Shown one piece after another: positions 7,514 to 60,524 of a DNA stretch of 64,000 nucleotides. Made by a program: the position numbers and the translations under genes. Below the pieces are notes generated by a model, which saw only the letters and a list, made by a program, of their open reading frames with translations, was not told the origin of the DNA and did not search any database. The DNA is taken from the NCBI RefSeq assembly GCF_003258365.1, contig NZ_QHKM01000004.1, positions 62,001 through 126,000 on the forward strand, written 5' to 3'. The number at the start of each line of letters is the position of its first letter. The stretch's first letter is position 1. Origin of the DNA: Hymenobacter edaphi. GTDB lineage: Bacteria; Bacteroidota; Bacteroidia; Cytophagales; Hymenobacteraceae.

Positions 7514-7530
7514 TTATTAGGCCACAAAAA

Positions 7531-7562
7531 AGCCCGCTGGATTGCTCCAGCGGGCTTTTTTT
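7531..7562 (+). terminator. rho-independent terminator of lgt
   Basis: A perfect stem AGCCCGCTGGA / TCCAGCGGGCT with loop TTGC is followed by a run of seven or more T. It lies 17 bp after the lgt stop. An A-run on the other side makes it potentially bidirectional. Confidence 0.9.
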
Positions 7563-7574
7563 ATGGACCATTAC

Positions 7575-7695
7575 AGAACGTCATGCAGAGCGCAGCGAAG
7601 CATCTCGCGTGCTGACGCCAGATAGTAAAGTCATCGTTCAACGAGAAAATTACTATCCGGCGAGATGCTTCGGCTGCGCCTCTGCATGACGTTCT
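7575..7695. repeat. palindromic intergenic repeat (GTCATGC family, copy 2)
   Basis: Outer arms at 7575-7608 and 7660-7695 (AGAACGTCATGCAGAGC... and its near complement) enclose a second, inner pair GATAGTAA / TTACTATC (7621-7628 and 7650-7657). It occupies the gap between the convergent genes lgt and fbaA. The arm shares the GTCATGC-GAGC and CGAAGCATCTC blocks with the element at 2168-2252. Confidence 0.8.
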
Positions 7696-7706
7696 TTTTG
7701 CGTTGA

Positions 7707-8885: not shown

Positions 8886-8937
8886 CGAAATCGGGCTACG
8901 GTACCATTCGCCGCGCGCAAAGGCCGGCTGGCGAGCG

Positions 8938-9008
8938 TAGCGCGGGCTTCAGCCCGCGTCCACCAGAGCGGTTTTGTTCGGGCGGACGCGGGCTTCAGCC
9001 CGCGCTAC
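8938..9008. repeat. GTAGCGC palindromic repeat, copy 1
   Basis: Two 25-base arms (8938-8962 and 8984-9008) are inverted copies differing only in the central two bases. Each arm is itself nearly palindromic (CGCGGGCT-TC-AGCCCGCG), so the element can form nested hairpins. A related GTAGCGCCGGCACTTAGCCGG copy lies at 36098-36138. Confidence 0.8.
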
Positions 9009-40240: not shown

Positions 40241-40840
40241 ATGAAACCCACTTGTACTGCTGCAACTGTATTTCTCGCCCTGCTGCTCAGCAGCTGCTTT
40301 ACCGCCCGCGAAGGGCGCATCGAATCCGACTACAGCTACGCGGGCAACTTCCGGCACTACCGCACCTTCGCCTTCCTGCAGGGCGCCGACGGCACGGCCC
40401 GCGACAGCGCCGCCATGCTCGATGAAACCGTGCGCGACGCCATCCAGACGCACCTGCGCGCCCAGGGCTACAAGCTCAACCAGCGCCGCCCCGATTTGCT
40501 GATTTCCTACCGCGTGTTCGACGGGGCCATGCGCTTCACCGGCTACAACCAGCCCGACCTGATGCAGTGGGTGCGCAAGGAATCGGTGGAAGACGACGAG
40601 ACGCCCACCGACGAGCGGCAGGGCTACGACCGGGTGCGCTACCTGCTCAACGACGGCACGCTGCTCATCACCCTTATCGACCACAAAAACGGCCGCGCCG
40701 TGTGGCAGGGCTACGCCTCCAACGTAACGGCCCGGCAGGGCGCCCAGGCCAGCATCATCATGCGCCGCGCCGTGCGCTCCATCTTCGACCGCTACCGCGT
40801 GCTGTCGGAAGACTACCAGAACGAACCGCAGATGCGCTAG
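40241..40840 (+). CDS. DUF4136 domain lipoprotein
   Basis: A 199-residue protein with lipoprotein signal MKPTCTAATVFLALLLSSC (Cys19). The mature part follows the DUF4136 pattern: a YSYAGNFRHYRTFAF block, a helix with DAIQTHLRAQGYKLNQRRPDLLISY, and a strand-rich end where LLITLIDHKNGRAVWQGYA is conserved. These are small outer-membrane or periplasmic lipoproteins of unknown role. Its stop codon is followed on the next base by the inverted-repeat element at 40841. Confidence 0.85.
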   Translation: MKPTCTAATVFLALLLSSCFTAREGRIESDYSYAGNFRHYRTFAFLQGADGTARDSAAMLDETVRDAIQTHLRAQGYKLNQRRPDLLISYRVFDGAMRFTGYNQPDLMQWVRKESVEDDETPTDERQGYDRVRYLLNDGTLLITLIDHKNGRAVWQGYASNVTARQGAQASIIMRRAVRSIFDRYRVLSEDYQNEPQMR

Positions 40841-41057
40841 GGGCCTCGCCCCCCGGCCCCCTCTCCAAAAGAGAGGGGGAGCTTGACGTCAATAAAAAAG
40901 CGGCCGCCATAAGCATGATGCTCATGGCGGCCGCTGTCGTTACATTTCATTTAAACTTGTCCCTATTGGGCCGCGGATGTTTCCTGTAGCGGTCCGCCCA
41001 ACCTGCTGACGTCAGGCTCCCCCTCTCTTTTGGAGAGGGGGCCGGGGGGTGAGGCCC
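40841..41057. repeat. 217-bp element with 51-bp terminal inverted repeats filling a convergent gap
   Basis: Arms 40841-40891 and 41007-41057 are inverted copies that differ at 2 of 51 positions. They begin GGGCCTCGCCCCCCGGCCCC and include CTCTCCAAAAGAGAGGGGG, itself a hairpin, and end GACGTCA. The left arm starts on the base after the stop of the DUF4136 gene; the right arm ends on the base before the stop codon of the convergent gene. The 115-bp centre carries a terminator hairpin. Confidence 0.9.
40892..40935 (-). terminator. terminator inside the inverted-repeat element
   Basis: A perfect 12-bp stem AGCGGCCGCCAT / ATGGCGGCCGCT with a 13-base loop is followed on the minus strand by a T-run (TTTTTTATT). 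It would terminate the gene at 41058-41987. Confidence 0.75.
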
Positions 41058-41987
41058 TTACCGGTTTTTGCCGGCCGGAATGCGAAACTGCAGGCCCAAC
41101 GTCGGCAGGATGGTGACGCCTTTGAGCTTGGTTTCCTTGTTGTTGAGAATCTTGTAGGTGCCGAAGTTCTGGTAGTAAATGGCCAGCGCCGGCAGGAAAT
41201 AGGCGTAGCGGTAGCCCACTTTCAGGTTGACGAAGCCGCCGATGGCCCCGTAGCTGCGCCGCTCCAGCAGGTTCGGAATGCGGTCGGTGACGCGGTTGGA
41301 GCCGGGAATGTAGTTGAAGATTTTGCCGGGCTGGAAGCCGTATTTCAGGAAGGTGCGGCTGTAGACCAGGCCGTACGACACGTTGCCGATCTGCTCTTCG
41401 GGCCCGAAGGAGGTGCTGAACACCAGCGGCACCAGCAAATCGACGCGGCGGGCGGTGAAGCCCAGCAGCTTCTCGGTGTCTTCGAGAAAGGGAATGCTCG
41501 GCAGCTTGGCCTTCTGGGTGGAAAACTGCAGGCCCACGCTGCCGTACATGTCGCCCGACTGGCCCTGGGGCTTCTCGGGCGTGCCCAGCGGCCCCATAAA
41601 CTGGTACATGGCATCGAAGCTGTGCGCCCCGAACGAATACTTGTAGCCCACGTCGACGCGGTTGAGCAGGCCGTAGCGCACGTAGAGGTCGGAGGTAGCC
41701 ACGGTCGGGTCGAGCACGTAGGCCAGCGCGGCGGCCTGCACCCGGTCGAGGCCCTGCTCGTAGCGGATGGTGTCGCGGTTGATGGCCTGCTGCACCACGT
41801 CTTTGGCCGCTCCGGTGATTTTGCCGATGGAGGCCGTGCCGATGTTGAAGCCCAGGTTGCCGCCGGCCTTGAACTGGCCTTTGGGCGTGACTTTGCCCGA
41901 CGAAATAATGGAGCGCGGAGCCGAGCAGGCCCCGACGGCCAGCAGCAGTGCGAAGGGCAGCAGGCGGCGGAGAGAAGAAAGGAGCAT
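41058..41987 (-). CDS. outer-membrane beta-barrel-like lipoprotein of unknown function
   Basis: A 309-residue protein with lipoprotein signal MLLSSLRRLLPFALLLAVGAC (Cys21). The mature protein has many Gly- and aromatic-rich strands (GGNLGFNIGTASIG, VDVGYKYSFGAHSFDAMYQF, LKVGYRYAYFLPALAIYYQNF) and resembles barrel-forming Bacteroidota proteins. No enzyme motif is visible. It is a single gene between the inverted-repeat element and the divergent gene at 42094. Confidence 0.65.
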   Translation of the reverse strand: MLLSSLRRLLPFALLLAVGACSAPRSIISSGKVTPKGQFKAGGNLGFNIGTASIGKITGAAKDVVQQAINRDTIRYEQGLDRVQAAALAYVLDPTVATSDLYVRYGLLNRVDVGYKYSFGAHSFDAMYQFMGPLGTPEKPQGQSGDMYGSVGLQFSTQKAKLPSIPFLEDTEKLLGFTARRVDLLVPLVFSTSFGPEEQIGNVSYGLVYSRTFLKYGFQPGKIFNYIPGSNRVTDRIPNLLERRSYGAIGGFVNLKVGYRYAYFLPALAIYYQNFGTYKILNNKETKLKGVTILPTLGLQFRIPAGKNR

Positions 41988-42093: not shown

Positions 42094-43791
42094 ATGATAC
42101 TCGTTGTGCTCGTTTGGTTGGTTGCGGCCCTTGGCACCACCGCGCTGGGCGTGGGCGCGTGGCGCCTGGCCGGCCGCTTGGGCGTGCGCGGGGCCGGGCA
42201 GCTGCCCGCGCCCGAGTGGCTGAGCCTGACGGGTGGGGCCCTGCTGACGGCCGCCCTGCAGCTTTACTCATTGGCCGCCCCGATTGACGCGCGGGCACAG
42301 CTACTATTCGGCCTCGGCCTGGCCGTCGTGCTGCTGCTGAACCGCCGCGCCTGGTGGCAGGCTGTGCGCCGGTCGTGGCCCGCCCGCTGGAGTTCCGCTG
42401 AGCGTCTGGGCGCGGTGCTGCTCCTACTGCTGCTCGGCTGGCTGCTGACCTTCGCCGCGCAGGCGCCCACCAACTACGACGTGGGCCTGTACCAGCTGCA
42501 AACGCTGCAATGGACCGAGCAATTTGCCGCCGTGCCCGGCCTGGGCAACCTGCACGGCCGCTTGGCTTTCAACTCCAGCCTGTACCTGCCGCTGGCTTTG
42601 TTTCGGGCGACGACGCCCGTCGGCCCGGCCTACGCGCTCAGCGCCTACAGCTACGCCCTGCTGGCCGTGGCGGCGGTACGGGCCCTGGTGGCCGGCCTGC
42701 GCGCTCCGCAGCCCGATGCGCGCCGGGTGTGGGCGCCCCTGCTGCTGCTGCTGCTGCTGGTGTACTCGTTTCAGGTCTGGCTCTCGTCGGTTACTTCCGA
42801 CTGCACCACGGCCGCGCTGCTGGTGCTGCTGTTCTATTACTTCGCCCAGCACCCGCCGCTGCGCGCCACCGAGGCCCAGCGCCTGTTGCTGACCTTGCTG
42901 GCCGCCTGGGCTGTCACGCTGAAGCTCTCGGCGGCACCGGTGCTACTGCTGCCGCTCTACGCCGCGCGGGCCGCCCCGGAGTCGCTGCGTTTCGGCCGCC
43001 GCTGGGGCGGGCCGCTGGCGCTGGGGCTGCTGCTGGCCCTGCCCTGGCTGACGCGCAACGTAGTTTTGTCGGGCTACCTGATCTACCCGCTGCCAGCCAT
43101 TGATTTATTCGACGTCGACTGGAAGCTGCCGCTGGCCTACGCCCGCATGGAGCATAATATGATTGTGAACCTGGCCCGCAACTCGGCCGAAAGCCCCTAC
43201 GCCGCGCCCCACCAGACGCTGTGGCAGTGGTGGCCGAACTGGTGGGCCCCGATGGTGGGCTTCCCCGGCGCCGTGGTGGTGGCCGCGCTGGCCTCGCCAC
43301 TGGTGGCCGCGTGGCGCTGGCGGCGGCCGCGCACCGCCGCCGAGCAGGGCTGGGCCGGCGGCTGGCTGGTGGCCTGGGTGGGCAGCGTGTTCTGGTTTGT
43401 GGCCGCCCCCGATTACCGCTTCGGGGCGGGCTTTCTGCTGGTGGCAGCGCTGTGGCCCTGGCTGGGGCCCCGCTGGCCCGGCCCGGCCCAGGCGGGCCGG
43501 CTGCGCTACCTGCCGGGCCTGCTGCTGCTGCTTTGGGTGCTGCATAACCTGCGCGGCCCGCTTTACCAGCTGCGCCACAACCCGGCACGCTTTGCCCGGC
43601 GCCTGGTGTGGCCCGAACTACCCGCCGTGCCCGCCACCGTGGCCGTGCCTGTCGCGCCCGGCCTCCTCGTGCGCGTGCCGCGCGAGGGGTTTCAGTGCTG
43701 GGGGGCACCCTTGCCCTGCGCCCACTGCGCCGAAGCCGGCCTGCGCCTGCGCGGCCGTACGCTGGGCGAGGGTTTGCGGCGCACGGAGTAG
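42094..43791 (+). CDS. multi-pass membrane protein, LIC_10190-like / glycosyltransferase-like
   Basis: A 565-residue, very Leu/Ala-rich inner-membrane protein with at least ten hydrophobic segments. After the fourth segment it has NYDVGLYQLQTLQWTEQF, a motif I associate with the LIC_10190 family, whose topology resembles GT-C glycosyltransferases. A short cytoplasmic-like tail contains CWGAPLPCAHC, a Cys cluster. The ATG at 42094 follows the promoter directly. The next gene encodes a soluble glycosyltransferase, which agrees with a role in envelope glycans, but this is inference. Confidence 0.65.
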   Translation: MILVVLVWLVAALGTTALGVGAWRLAGRLGVRGAGQLPAPEWLSLTGGALLTAALQLYSLAAPIDARAQLLFGLGLAVVLLLNRRAWWQAVRRSWPARWSSAERLGAVLLLLLLGWLLTFAAQAPTNYDVGLYQLQTLQWTEQFAAVPGLGNLHGRLAFNSSLYLPLALFRATTPVGPAYALSAYSYALLAVAAVRALVAGLRAPQPDARRVWAPLLLLLLLVYSFQVWLSSVTSDCTTAALLVLLFYYFAQHPPLRATEAQRLLLTLLAAWAVTLKLSAAPVLLLPLYAARAAPESLRFGRRWGGPLALGLLLALPWLTRNVVLSGYLIYPLPAIDLFDVDWKLPLAYARMEHNMIVNLARNSAESPYAAPHQTLWQWWPNWWAPMVGFPGAVVVAALASPLVAAWRWRRPRTAAEQGWAGGWLVAWVGSVFWFVAAPDYRFGAGFLLVAALWPWLGPRWPGPAQAGRLRYLPGLLLLLWVLHNLRGPLYQLRHNPARFARRLVWPELPAVPATVAVPVAPGLLVRVPREGFQCWGAPLPCAHCAEAGLRLRGRTLGEGLRRTE

Positions 43792-43813
43792 GAGGGAAGC
43801 GGCTCACCCCACT

Positions 43814-43979
43814 GTCATTGCGAGCAAAGCGAAGCAATCCTTCCTCCAGTAGCACCGCCGAGGCAATCCTTGCTGCCCGAAAACGGCACCGCCGAAACTG
43901 CAGATGCCCGTTTCGGGCGGTGCTGCTTGTCCCGTTTGTGCCGCGAGGGGAAAGATTGCTTCGCTTCGCTCGCAATGAC
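43814..43979. repeat. palindromic intergenic repeat with GTCATTGCGAGC arms
   Basis: Arms 43814-43839 and 43954-43979 (GTCATTGCGAGC... and GCTCGCAATGAC) are inverted copies with one mismatch in 26 bases. An internal pair GCACCGCCGAAAC / GTTTCGGGCGGTGC nests within. It separates the membrane protein gene from the glycosyltransferase and shares the GTCAT-GC-GAGC-GCGAAGCA architecture with the repeats at 2168 and 7575. Confidence 0.8.
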
Positions 43980-44050
43980 GGCGGGGTGAACCGTCTGCCA
44001 GCTCCGCCATTTCCTTGTTACTTGCTCGTCGTTACCTGATAATTGCCCGC

Positions 44051-58192: not shown

Positions 58193-59623
<1,431 letters not shown>

Positions 59624-59683
59624 ACCACGGATTCGACGAATTGTTCGGATTACGCGGATTTCGGGGACGATTATTCTTCCGCG

Positions 59684-59718
59684 TAAAGCCGCCTAGCCAG
59701 CGTGGCCGGGCGGCTTTA
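59684..59718. terminator. hairpin in the element, first
   Basis: TAAAGCCGCC-TA-GCCA pairs with TGGC-CGGGCGGCTTTA at 14 of 16 positions around loop GCG. A- and T-rich ends on both sides could allow termination in both directions. Confidence 0.6.
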
Positions 59719-59771
59719 TTTAAGTAGCAGCCAAGGTCCGGCGTCGAGCGCTACTGTGGCAACCAGAAATG

Positions 59772-59803
59772 AAAAGCCGGAGCCCTAACGGCTCCGGCTT
59801 TTT
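59772..59803. terminator. hairpin in the element, second
   Basis: AAAAGCCGGAGCC / GGCTCCGGCTTTT is a perfect 13-bp stem with loop CTAAC and A/T-rich flanks, a strong bidirectional terminator for the GlcD-type and acyl-CoA-binding genes. Confidence 0.8.
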
Positions 59804-59854
59804 AATCGTCCACGAAATCCGCGTAATCCGAACAATCCGTCGAATCCGTGGTCC

Positions 59855-60376
59855 TTACTGCTGAGTCTTCAGCTTGTCCTCGCCGCCGTACGGGGCGCCG
59901 GCGTTGATGTCGCCGCGCAGGCCGCCCATCGACTGGCCACCCTCATTTTCGTAGGGCGCCTTGGCCGTGCCGGGCGCGGGCGCTTCGTTGCCGGGCACTT
60001 TGTCGCCGTTCCCGACCTGCGAAGCCGTGGCGGGCTGACCGTTGCCGGTAATGACGGTGGTGGCTTCGCCCACCGGACCGGCCAGCTCCCCGACTTTCTC
60101 GATATACTGGCGCTTGGCGGCGTCTTCGCTCACGCCCTTGTACTTGCTCCAGGCATCCCACTGGGCCTGCGAAAGACCGGCCGGGCCGTTGGGATTGTCG
60201 GGGGTATCGTCGCCGACGCTGTCTTTTTTGGTGTCATGGTCGCCCTCGGTGGCTTGTTTGTAGAGCCCGTACAGCTCGTTCATGTGGGCGGCGGCTTTGT
60301 CGCCGGGCAGGCCGTCGACGCGCGACACGGCCGCTTCGAATTGCTGCTGCAGGCTTAGCTGATCTTGGAGGCTCAT
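59855..60376 (-). CDS. acyl-CoA-binding protein with C-terminal extension
   Basis: A 173-residue protein whose first ~90 residues follow the ACBP four-helix pattern: FEAAVSRVDGLP, MNELYGLYKQATEGD, LSQAQWDAWSKYKGVSEDAAKRQYIEKV. The KQAT and WDAW-KYKG blocks bind acyl-CoA in eukaryotic ACBPs. The remaining ~80 residues are Gly/Pro/Ala-rich and look disordered. ACBPs are uncommon in most bacteria. ATG 60376 gives MSLQDQLSLQQQFE; the upstream frame is not conserved. It would buffer or present long-chain acyl-CoA in the cytoplasm. Confidence 0.85.
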   Translation of the reverse strand: MSLQDQLSLQQQFEAAVSRVDGLPGDKAAAHMNELYGLYKQATEGDHDTKKDSVGDDTPDNPNGPAGLSQAQWDAWSKYKGVSEDAAKRQYIEKVGELAGPVGEATTVITGNGQPATASQVGNGDKVPGNEAPAPGTAKAPYENEGGQSMGGLRGDINAGAPYGGEDKLKTQQ

Positions 60377-60524
60377 CGGAAGGGAAGGGGTTAGGGGAAA
60401 AAGGAGGATTGACCGTATCGACGGCGCCGACAGGAACTCTACTGCCGCGGGCGGGCTTTGGTTGCGCACTGGCTTGCTCCAGTGCCGCGGTGCTATTTTG
60501 TCGCCCGCAAGTCCTCAACCTTCG

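Follow-up and report, generated by a model that had tools for sequence, protein, structure and literature searches.

Paired inverted arms in contact with stop codons in Hymenobacter edaphi and their probable link to elements carrying GxxExxY nuclease genes

Results

The focal gap and its counterparts in congeners

We analysed a stretch of 64,000 nucleotides from Hymenobacter edaphi, referred to here as the window, together with its source genome (G000; 6.04 Mb in 43 contigs) and seven congeners (G001-G007); contigs and loci carry the prefixes C and L. A gene for an FAD-linked oxidase and a gene for an acyl-CoA-binding protein (ACBP) converge on a gap that holds an inverted repeat (Table 1). 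Each arm is 51 nt long, the two are 96% complementary with 2 mismatches, and they lie 129 nt apart. A preliminary description of the window had given arms of 50 bp with 2 mismatches, at 0 nt and 2 nt from the two stop codons; we confirmed both the repeat and its placement with the 51-nt arms, and the earlier distances differ because the arms on which they were based were slightly shorter. It had also seen no obvious sequence in common with another inverted-repeat element at 40841, which agrees with our assignment of that element to family B and of the focal arms to family A.

Table 1. Features of the focal gap, its flanking genes and the second inverted-repeat element, in window coordinates
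Feature	Coordinates	Strand	Remarks
Left arm, family A	59623..59673	+	Begins on the final G of the FAD-oxidase TAG stop; family model match
Right arm, family A, inverted	59803..59853	-	1 nt short of the ACBP TAA stop; family model match
Loop between arms	59674..59802		Weakly alignable to G002, better to the reverse complement in G005
Hairpin, probable FAD-oxidase gene terminator	59684..59718	+	RNA fold; terminator scan did not call
Terminator-like hairpin of ACBP gene	59772..59802	-	Directly inside right arm; terminator scan and fold
FAD-linked oxidase (GlcD-type) gene	58193..59623	+	Pfam FAD_binding_4 and FAD-oxidase_C
Acyl-CoA-binding protein (ACBP) gene	59855..60469	-	Start uncertain: ORF list 60469, gene caller 60376
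Other inverted-repeat element of the preliminary description	40835..41063		Family B arms; full form in G000 brackets DUF559 genes

The gap is predicted to fold into a very stable RNA (-152.6 kcal/mol against a mean of -75.5 for shuffled sequences; z -15.7; 0 of 200 shuffles as stable). Terminator hairpins had been described inside the element; one, beside the right arm, was indeed called terminator-like on the minus strand (shuffles average 0.4 such calls), and a second strong stem, beside the left arm, was visible in the RNA fold only and absent from the terminator scan. An Rfam scan of the window at gathering thresholds returned one tRNA and nothing else.

The FAD-oxidase gene adjoins the ACBP gene in all eight genomes of the genus (identity 100 to 84%), and its C-terminal NPxKIF-stop end is conserved in congeners with and without arms. 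Including the stops, the gap measures 237 nt in G000, 239 nt in G002 and 213 nt in G005, which carry A arms, and 118, 123, 132 and 126 nt in G001, G007, G003 and G004, which have none. In G006 the gap (281 nt) gave no A or B match, and by eye it contains an inverted pair of another repeat (GTCATTGCGAGC). The loops of the armed gaps (131, 113 and 106 nt) are close in length to the arm-free gaps, which would fit the addition of arms on each side; no alignment between armed loops and arm-free gaps was found, the highest z (3.4) being with the G006 filler. The G005 loop aligns to that of G002 as its reverse complement (z 7.5 inverted versus 1.0 direct), as recombination between the arms would give, and among the loci compared such inversion between species was seen at the focal gap only. 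A general rule by which the arms persist and the loops are replaced every time was rejected: loop sequences align in direct orientation at seven of eight other loci common to G000 and G002 (z 5.4 to 30.8) and fail to do so at the eighth.

The same gap is filled differently in relatives at further loci. At C28:239120/239380, G000 has an A pair where G002 has another inverted pair together with a promoter-like TACCTTTG, an ATG and five codons; the end of the G000 arm at 239380 replaces this box, the ATG and the five codons of a gene that is deoC-like by eye. An A pair in G000 stands against a GTCATTCCGAGC pair in G002 at C36:250091, B arms at C40:77030-77170 in G000 against CCCCTCC-type (CCCCTCCTTTTTGAAGGAGGGG) arms in the same gap of G002:C12, and one gap has an A pair in G002 where G000 has a GTCATTGCGAGC pair. 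Arms of the CCCCTCCTTTTTGAAGGAGGGG type were also seen around DUF559 genes. A GTCATTGCGAGC-type pair flanks a central hairpin at 43785-44008 of the window, and pairs of this type are nested within the A arms of three A pairs (L026, L012, L014).

Dispersal and pairing of the arms

A DNA search of G000 with the focal element gave at least 72 match rows, with each arm matching both query arms; 40 of 61 candidates were scored, so that this count is a lower bound. Using a profile built from the two focal arms, we found 48 matches of family A, and 58 of family B (that of the 40841 element), in an 864-kb contiguous sample (C21:1-400000, C28:1-400000 and the window) and 57 loci, with redundant DNA removed; as the loci were chosen around matches, these counts give no copy density. 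Family A was matched in 11 of 58 genomes searched, from 2 of 27 genera, and its sharing is uneven, extending to 7 of the 58 relatives searched besides the closest of G000.

The arm consensus of family A is 50 nt long, with the ends GACC... and ...GGACGATT, and matches itself, by eye, at a short terminal CCACG/CGTGG alone; B arms contain a hairpin. A arms of several loci, for example C28:239120, C11:1322491 and the focal right arm of G002, contain a recurrent insert of some 20 nt resembling TTGGCTACGCCGAACTTCG.

When two arms of one family lie at most 1 kb apart, they run plus then minus in 15 of 17 neighbouring A arms and 17 of 17 neighbouring B arms. Two A matches in L026 are partial and overlap in position, and a mixed pair of one A and one B arm lies at C39:169631/169766. 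Arms within a pair resemble each other just slightly more than randomly paired arms (A 0.777 versus 0.746, 279 of 10000 permutations; B 0.844 versus 0.812, 7 of 10000).

Without reference to either family, separated inverted repeats (ungapped finder; minimum arm length 25 nt, minimum loop length 40 nt) were present in 25 of the 516 gaps of 60-2000 nt in the 864 kb and in none of 516 shuffled gaps. By gap type they occurred in 6/94 convergent, 16/309 tandem and 3/113 divergent gaps. These figures supersede an earlier BLAST census (convergent 3/94, tandem 13/309, divergent 4/113), which missed near-symmetrical gaps such as 40841.

Contact with coding limits

Gene limits for arm placement came from a simple gene caller made for the present analysis. 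Where an A arm faces the 3' end of a gene, it lies within -2 to +1 nt of the stop in 24 of 27 cases (the count is also 24 for -2 to +2 nt, where a uniform position expects 0.7); for B, 19 of 28 lie within -2 to +2 nt, where 2.1 are expected. The same -2 to +1 nt contact holds for 34 of 45 three-prime-facing A arms at 40 loci of relatives plus L008 of G000 itself. Beside A arms, the arm donates one base of TAG in six cases, two of TGA in six and one or two of TAA in four. Two different repeat families share the placement far above uniform expectation, which supports the preliminary description on this point. Arms lying elsewhere without bias would, by that description, have argued against specific placement; the other copies keep the placement, and matches inside called genes number 0 of 48 for A and 3 of 58 for B.

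Gene 5' ends are faced by 21 of the 48 A matches, some of which contact the start codon or a TAnnTTTG box, which we take to be the Bacteroidota promoter motif, and others of which stand apart. Among these 21 rows, the GTG reads in frame and open in 10; discounting L018, whose flank is a stop codon of the opposite strand, and L014, whose arm abuts a promoter-like box, leaves 8. An in-frame GTG is no independent test of frame, because the gene caller itself chooses such starts.

A general insertion preference, or a functional requirement, at convergent gene ends had been suggested. As regards the stops themselves it stood, given the contact of A and B arms described above, but 21 of the 33 A/B pairs lie in tandem gaps. 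The convergent excess is mild (11/33 pairs versus 94/516 gaps, p=0.03), and divergent gaps are avoided (1/33 pairs, p=0.003). The governing rule is contact with coding limits, and convergent ends are a mild bias only. The comparison with sister species proposed in the preliminary description did yield gaps without arms, but no target duplication: direct repeats of 2-8 nt at the 33 pairs were no commoner than in shuffled pairs, and those of 2-5 nt at the 48 single A matches did not exceed shuffles.

Nuclease genes between inverted arms

Of 15 A pairs, one encloses a GxxExxY gene and one another ORF, of 125 aa and without a family match. The former, C28:399755/400525, holds the one GxxExxY gene found in G000, an ORF of 133 codons (TIGR04256, E 1.2e-36; PF13366, PD-(D/E)XK) whose protein maps to C28:399883-400224. 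A arms enclose GxxExxY genes in G007 and G005 as well, and across the genus 6 of 7 such genes lie within an inverted repeat (a raw count, made without shifted windows), three with A arms and three with other arms (L183, L184, L186/187; one of these three genes is split in two). No inverted arms were detected at the seventh, L185. G002 has at least 19 A matches, yet no GxxExxY gene was found there.

Family B shows a parallel arrangement with DUF559. In G000, a B pair surrounds each of the three strong DUF559 matches but not the fourth, weak one, which belongs to a frame of 1641 codons. Of the 22 matches listed for the genus, three belong to frames 1641-1706 codons long; 18 of the remaining 19 lie within an inverted repeat, and 11 of these 18 have matches to the B model (again a raw count without shifted windows).

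The positions G26, G28, E31, Y34, E41, D70, K82, Q94 and Y98 are invariant in 69 GxxExxY sequences, and E80 is conserved in at least 90%. The predicted structure (pLDDT 91.4) is nearest to SSO0001, a Cas4 protein, and to alkaline/lambda-type exonucleases, with resemblance to SSO0001 and LHK-Exo at E about 4e-4 and a modest TM of about 0.5. A PDB sequence search with the nuclease profile gave 0 matches, PADLOC gave weak matches only (Cas4b E 0.0027, DpdF 0.0066), and PHROGs gave weak matches mostly of unknown function. In their accessible parts, PMC8934634 and PMC12085832 name GxxExxY in passing only, and neither a link of A-type repeats with GxxExxY nor one of B-type repeats with DUF559 was met in the open-access literature searched, which lacks most subscription journals.

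Inverted repeats accompany GxxExxY genes in many phyla. A contig scan with an alignment of five GxxExxY proteins confirmed at least 542 relatives among 589 stretches; the best 80 were kept, and 69 of these had enough flank. At a cut-off of E<=0.01, an inverted repeat spans the gene in 53 of the 69 loci; for control windows displaced by 1.3-2.8 kb at the same loci the figure is 14 of 387. The loci with a spanning repeat comprise 18 of 18 with Hymenobacter in the title and 35 of 51 others, whose titles include Planctomycetota, Poribacteria, Verrucomicrobia, Calditrichaeota, cyanobacteria and Patescibacteria; at 16 of these 51 no spanning repeat was found. The arm start GTCTGAA(C/T)C(A/G)C(G/A)GATT is common at GxxExxY loci, with GGATT-type words repeated within the arms. 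Where the repeats reach E<=1e-4 (44 loci), the end of a long ORF lies within 12 nt of the arm in 37 of 88 cases (background 11/342) and within 60 nt in 53 of 88 (background 49/342), and in arms starting TGTCTGAA the arm's own TGA is often the stop of the ORF. The exact arm-head motif GTCTGAAYCRCRGATT occurs in 11 of 16 genomes searched, with up to 29 copies and none in a reversed control; 14 of the 16 had been picked for A-like arms, so that copy number and pairs are the news here. By reading, nine GTCTGAAYCRCRGATT pairs run plus then minus within about 310 nt. G000 and G002, in which arms start GACC, have no exact GTCTGAAYCRCRGATT head. For DUF559 across phyla, an inverted repeat was present in 15 of 28 loci (29 with one that was too short; raw count without shifted windows), including 14 of 16 short-frame, high-scoring loci, in two of which it is just 16 nt.

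Discussion

On balance, we favour the reading that the focal feature derives from a mobile element with inverted arms around a GxxExxY gene, of which it would be a non-autonomous copy that lacks the gene. The full form would consist of an arm, the nuclease gene and an inverted arm; gene-less forms would retain the arms, separated by a short loop in which terminator-type hairpins lie. Within G000, arms of this family surround a TIGR04256 gene (C28:399755/400525), and gene-less pairs of them lie elsewhere, among the 15 A pairs. The GxxExxY protein may cut at or near the arms, and host repair would then copy the arms into or over intergenic DNA, copying or replacing the gap. Enzymes like SSO0001 and the exonucleases process DNA ends, so a role in gap replacement is thinkable as a prediction from the modelled fold. 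Arms may settle at coding limits because an arm end is able to complete a stop (TA/G, T/GA or T/AA, the slash marking the arm border) or provide a GTG start, and copies flush with genes may be tolerated because hairpins just inside the arms, as putative terminators, could end the transcription of the neighbours. Some copies may still be mobile at present.

Several observations count against this reading. G002 combines at least 19 A matches with no GxxExxY gene found, and G000 has one gene only. GxxExxY genes also lie in non-A arms, and no arms were detected at L185 or at 16 of the 51 loci outside Hymenobacter. There is no direct duplication, at the level of either pairs or single arms. The uneven sharing of family A among relatives and the slightness of the resemblance within pairs likewise count against it. 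Natural selection for a structured filler of whatever kind might also explain why one locus carries two different fillers.

The contact with stops and starts may have arisen either through targeted insertion or through repeated loss of spacer. The arms nearest to the consensus (scores 62, 60 and 60) already touch stops, which speaks for targeted insertion, and the replaced deoC-like start speaks for spacer loss. A deletion ratchet, in which arms insert anywhere and flanking deletions halt at necessary coding sequence, would account for the arm end at C28:239380 that has replaced TACCTTTG, ATG and five codons still kept by G002, and for the lack of target duplication; recent copies would be expected to stand apart from genes, and as those closest to the consensus do not, we regard it as unlikely to be the main explanation. 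We give rather little credence to a structure made by the host, in which selection maintains the arms for a hairpin, of RNA or DNA, by which convergent transcripts are protected or insulated, and mobility is incidental. The very stable fold (z -15.7), the same location of the arms in G000, G002 and G005 and at other shared loci, and the slight excess of similarity within pairs (A 0.777 versus 0.746; B 0.844 versus 0.812) would agree with such a role, but four of eight genomes have no arms at the focal gap, 21 of 33 A/B pairs are tandem, 21 of 48 A matches face a gene start, and arms enclose nuclease genes too.

Miniature inverted-repeat elements (MITEs) have inverted termini and no coding content, lie near genes and can overlap coding ends. 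Family A resembles them in its terminal inverted repeats without coding content and in its many copies, which are old and unequal. However, an ordinary MITE derived from an insertion sequence with these terminal repeats is improbable here: no target duplication was seen at 33 pairs or 48 single A matches, and what was read between A arms is GxxExxY (three loci) and the one 125-aa ORF without a family match, so that no transposase with A ends was found and the parent-like form carries a nuclease gene instead. Bacterial MITEs such as ERIC, NEMIS and Correia are described in the accessible part of PMC3733652 (Di Nocera et al. 2013), which also treats REP dimers of the GTAG and CGTC superfamilies and TIRtrons, in which long terminal inverted repeats flank a tyrosine transposase and from which repeat families derive. 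As far as that text goes, A and B arms share much with REP dimers, namely short dispersed repeats in head-to-head or tail-to-tail pairs, hybrid dimers, stem-loop spacers, a location next to gene 3' ends (as for the 24 of 27 three-prime-facing A arms within -2 to +1 nt) and ends that supply a TAG stop. These likenesses, and the presence in G000 of one REP-associated tyrosine transposase (RAYT/TIRYT; NF047646), would suit movement of the arms in trans by this enzyme. In contrast to REPs, which are palindromes of 20-40 nt, A arms are 50 nt long and built of repeated CGGATT-type words, carry no GTAG or CGTC end tag, and in their full form enclose a PD-(D/E)XK nuclease gene. The G000 transposase gene is itself bracketed by a different inverted repeat of 86 nt (D arms; 96.5% identical), so that we found RAYT ownership of the A arms unsupported and think it very unlikely. 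D arms had no match in the sampled DNA, which excludes the locus of that gene.

The arrangement proposed for the GxxExxY element, inverted arms around one small gene with gene-less arm copies elsewhere, is that of TIRtrons as given in the accessible text of PMC3733652, but the arms here enclose GxxExxY (A) or DUF559 (B) and not an HUH transposase, and the repeat around the only Y1_Tnp gene of G000 is a different one. Across the genus, 10 of the 13 Y1_Tnp loci read lie within an inverted repeat. For DUF559, the DUF559/Vsr-like nuclease VsrA of Caulobacter, of the PD-(D/E)XK type, has been connected with cellular DNA damage (PMC12907096), and the gene enclosed by B arms belongs to the same family; the accessible part of that paper treats a role in repair and does not contain the terms 'inverted repeat' or 'palindrom'.

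More tentatively, and as a suggestion that we would not yet expect to hold, small PD-(D/E)XK nucleases (GxxExxY and DUF559) might found a class of transposase-free mobile elements whose arms are the scattered GGATT-type or CCCCTCTCC-type repeats of several phyla. GxxExxY would be Cas4/lambda-exonuclease-like in fold and DUF559 Vsr-like, and gene-less arm pairs would spread by replacing intergenic DNA up to stop or start codons. GxxExxY and DUF559, families of unclear role, here gain a concrete genomic partner in their own inverted arms, and the scattered intergenic repeats of several phyla gain a candidate origin and a candidate enzyme. These links also prompt the question of what allows an element to sit with such precision beside stop and start codons.

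Further repeats were observed alongside these families. The only RAYT found in G000 lies at L135:1263-2066 (G000:C41), where the right 86-nt repeat adjoins a stop-touching remnant of an A arm. Inverted GTCATGCTGAGC-type pairs (CGTC-tagged, REP-like) occupy 2168-2252 and 7514-7706 of the window, where congeners have related but different fillers, and a GTAG-tagged REP-like dimer (GTAGCGCGGGCTTCAGCCCGCG) at 8937-9008 is missing from the corresponding gap of the congeners compared. In G000, the gaps between tandem genes at C21:37786-37897 and C28:379023-379135 consist almost entirely of an inverted GGTGAGATGGTGAGG-type repeat lying a few nucleotides from both genes.
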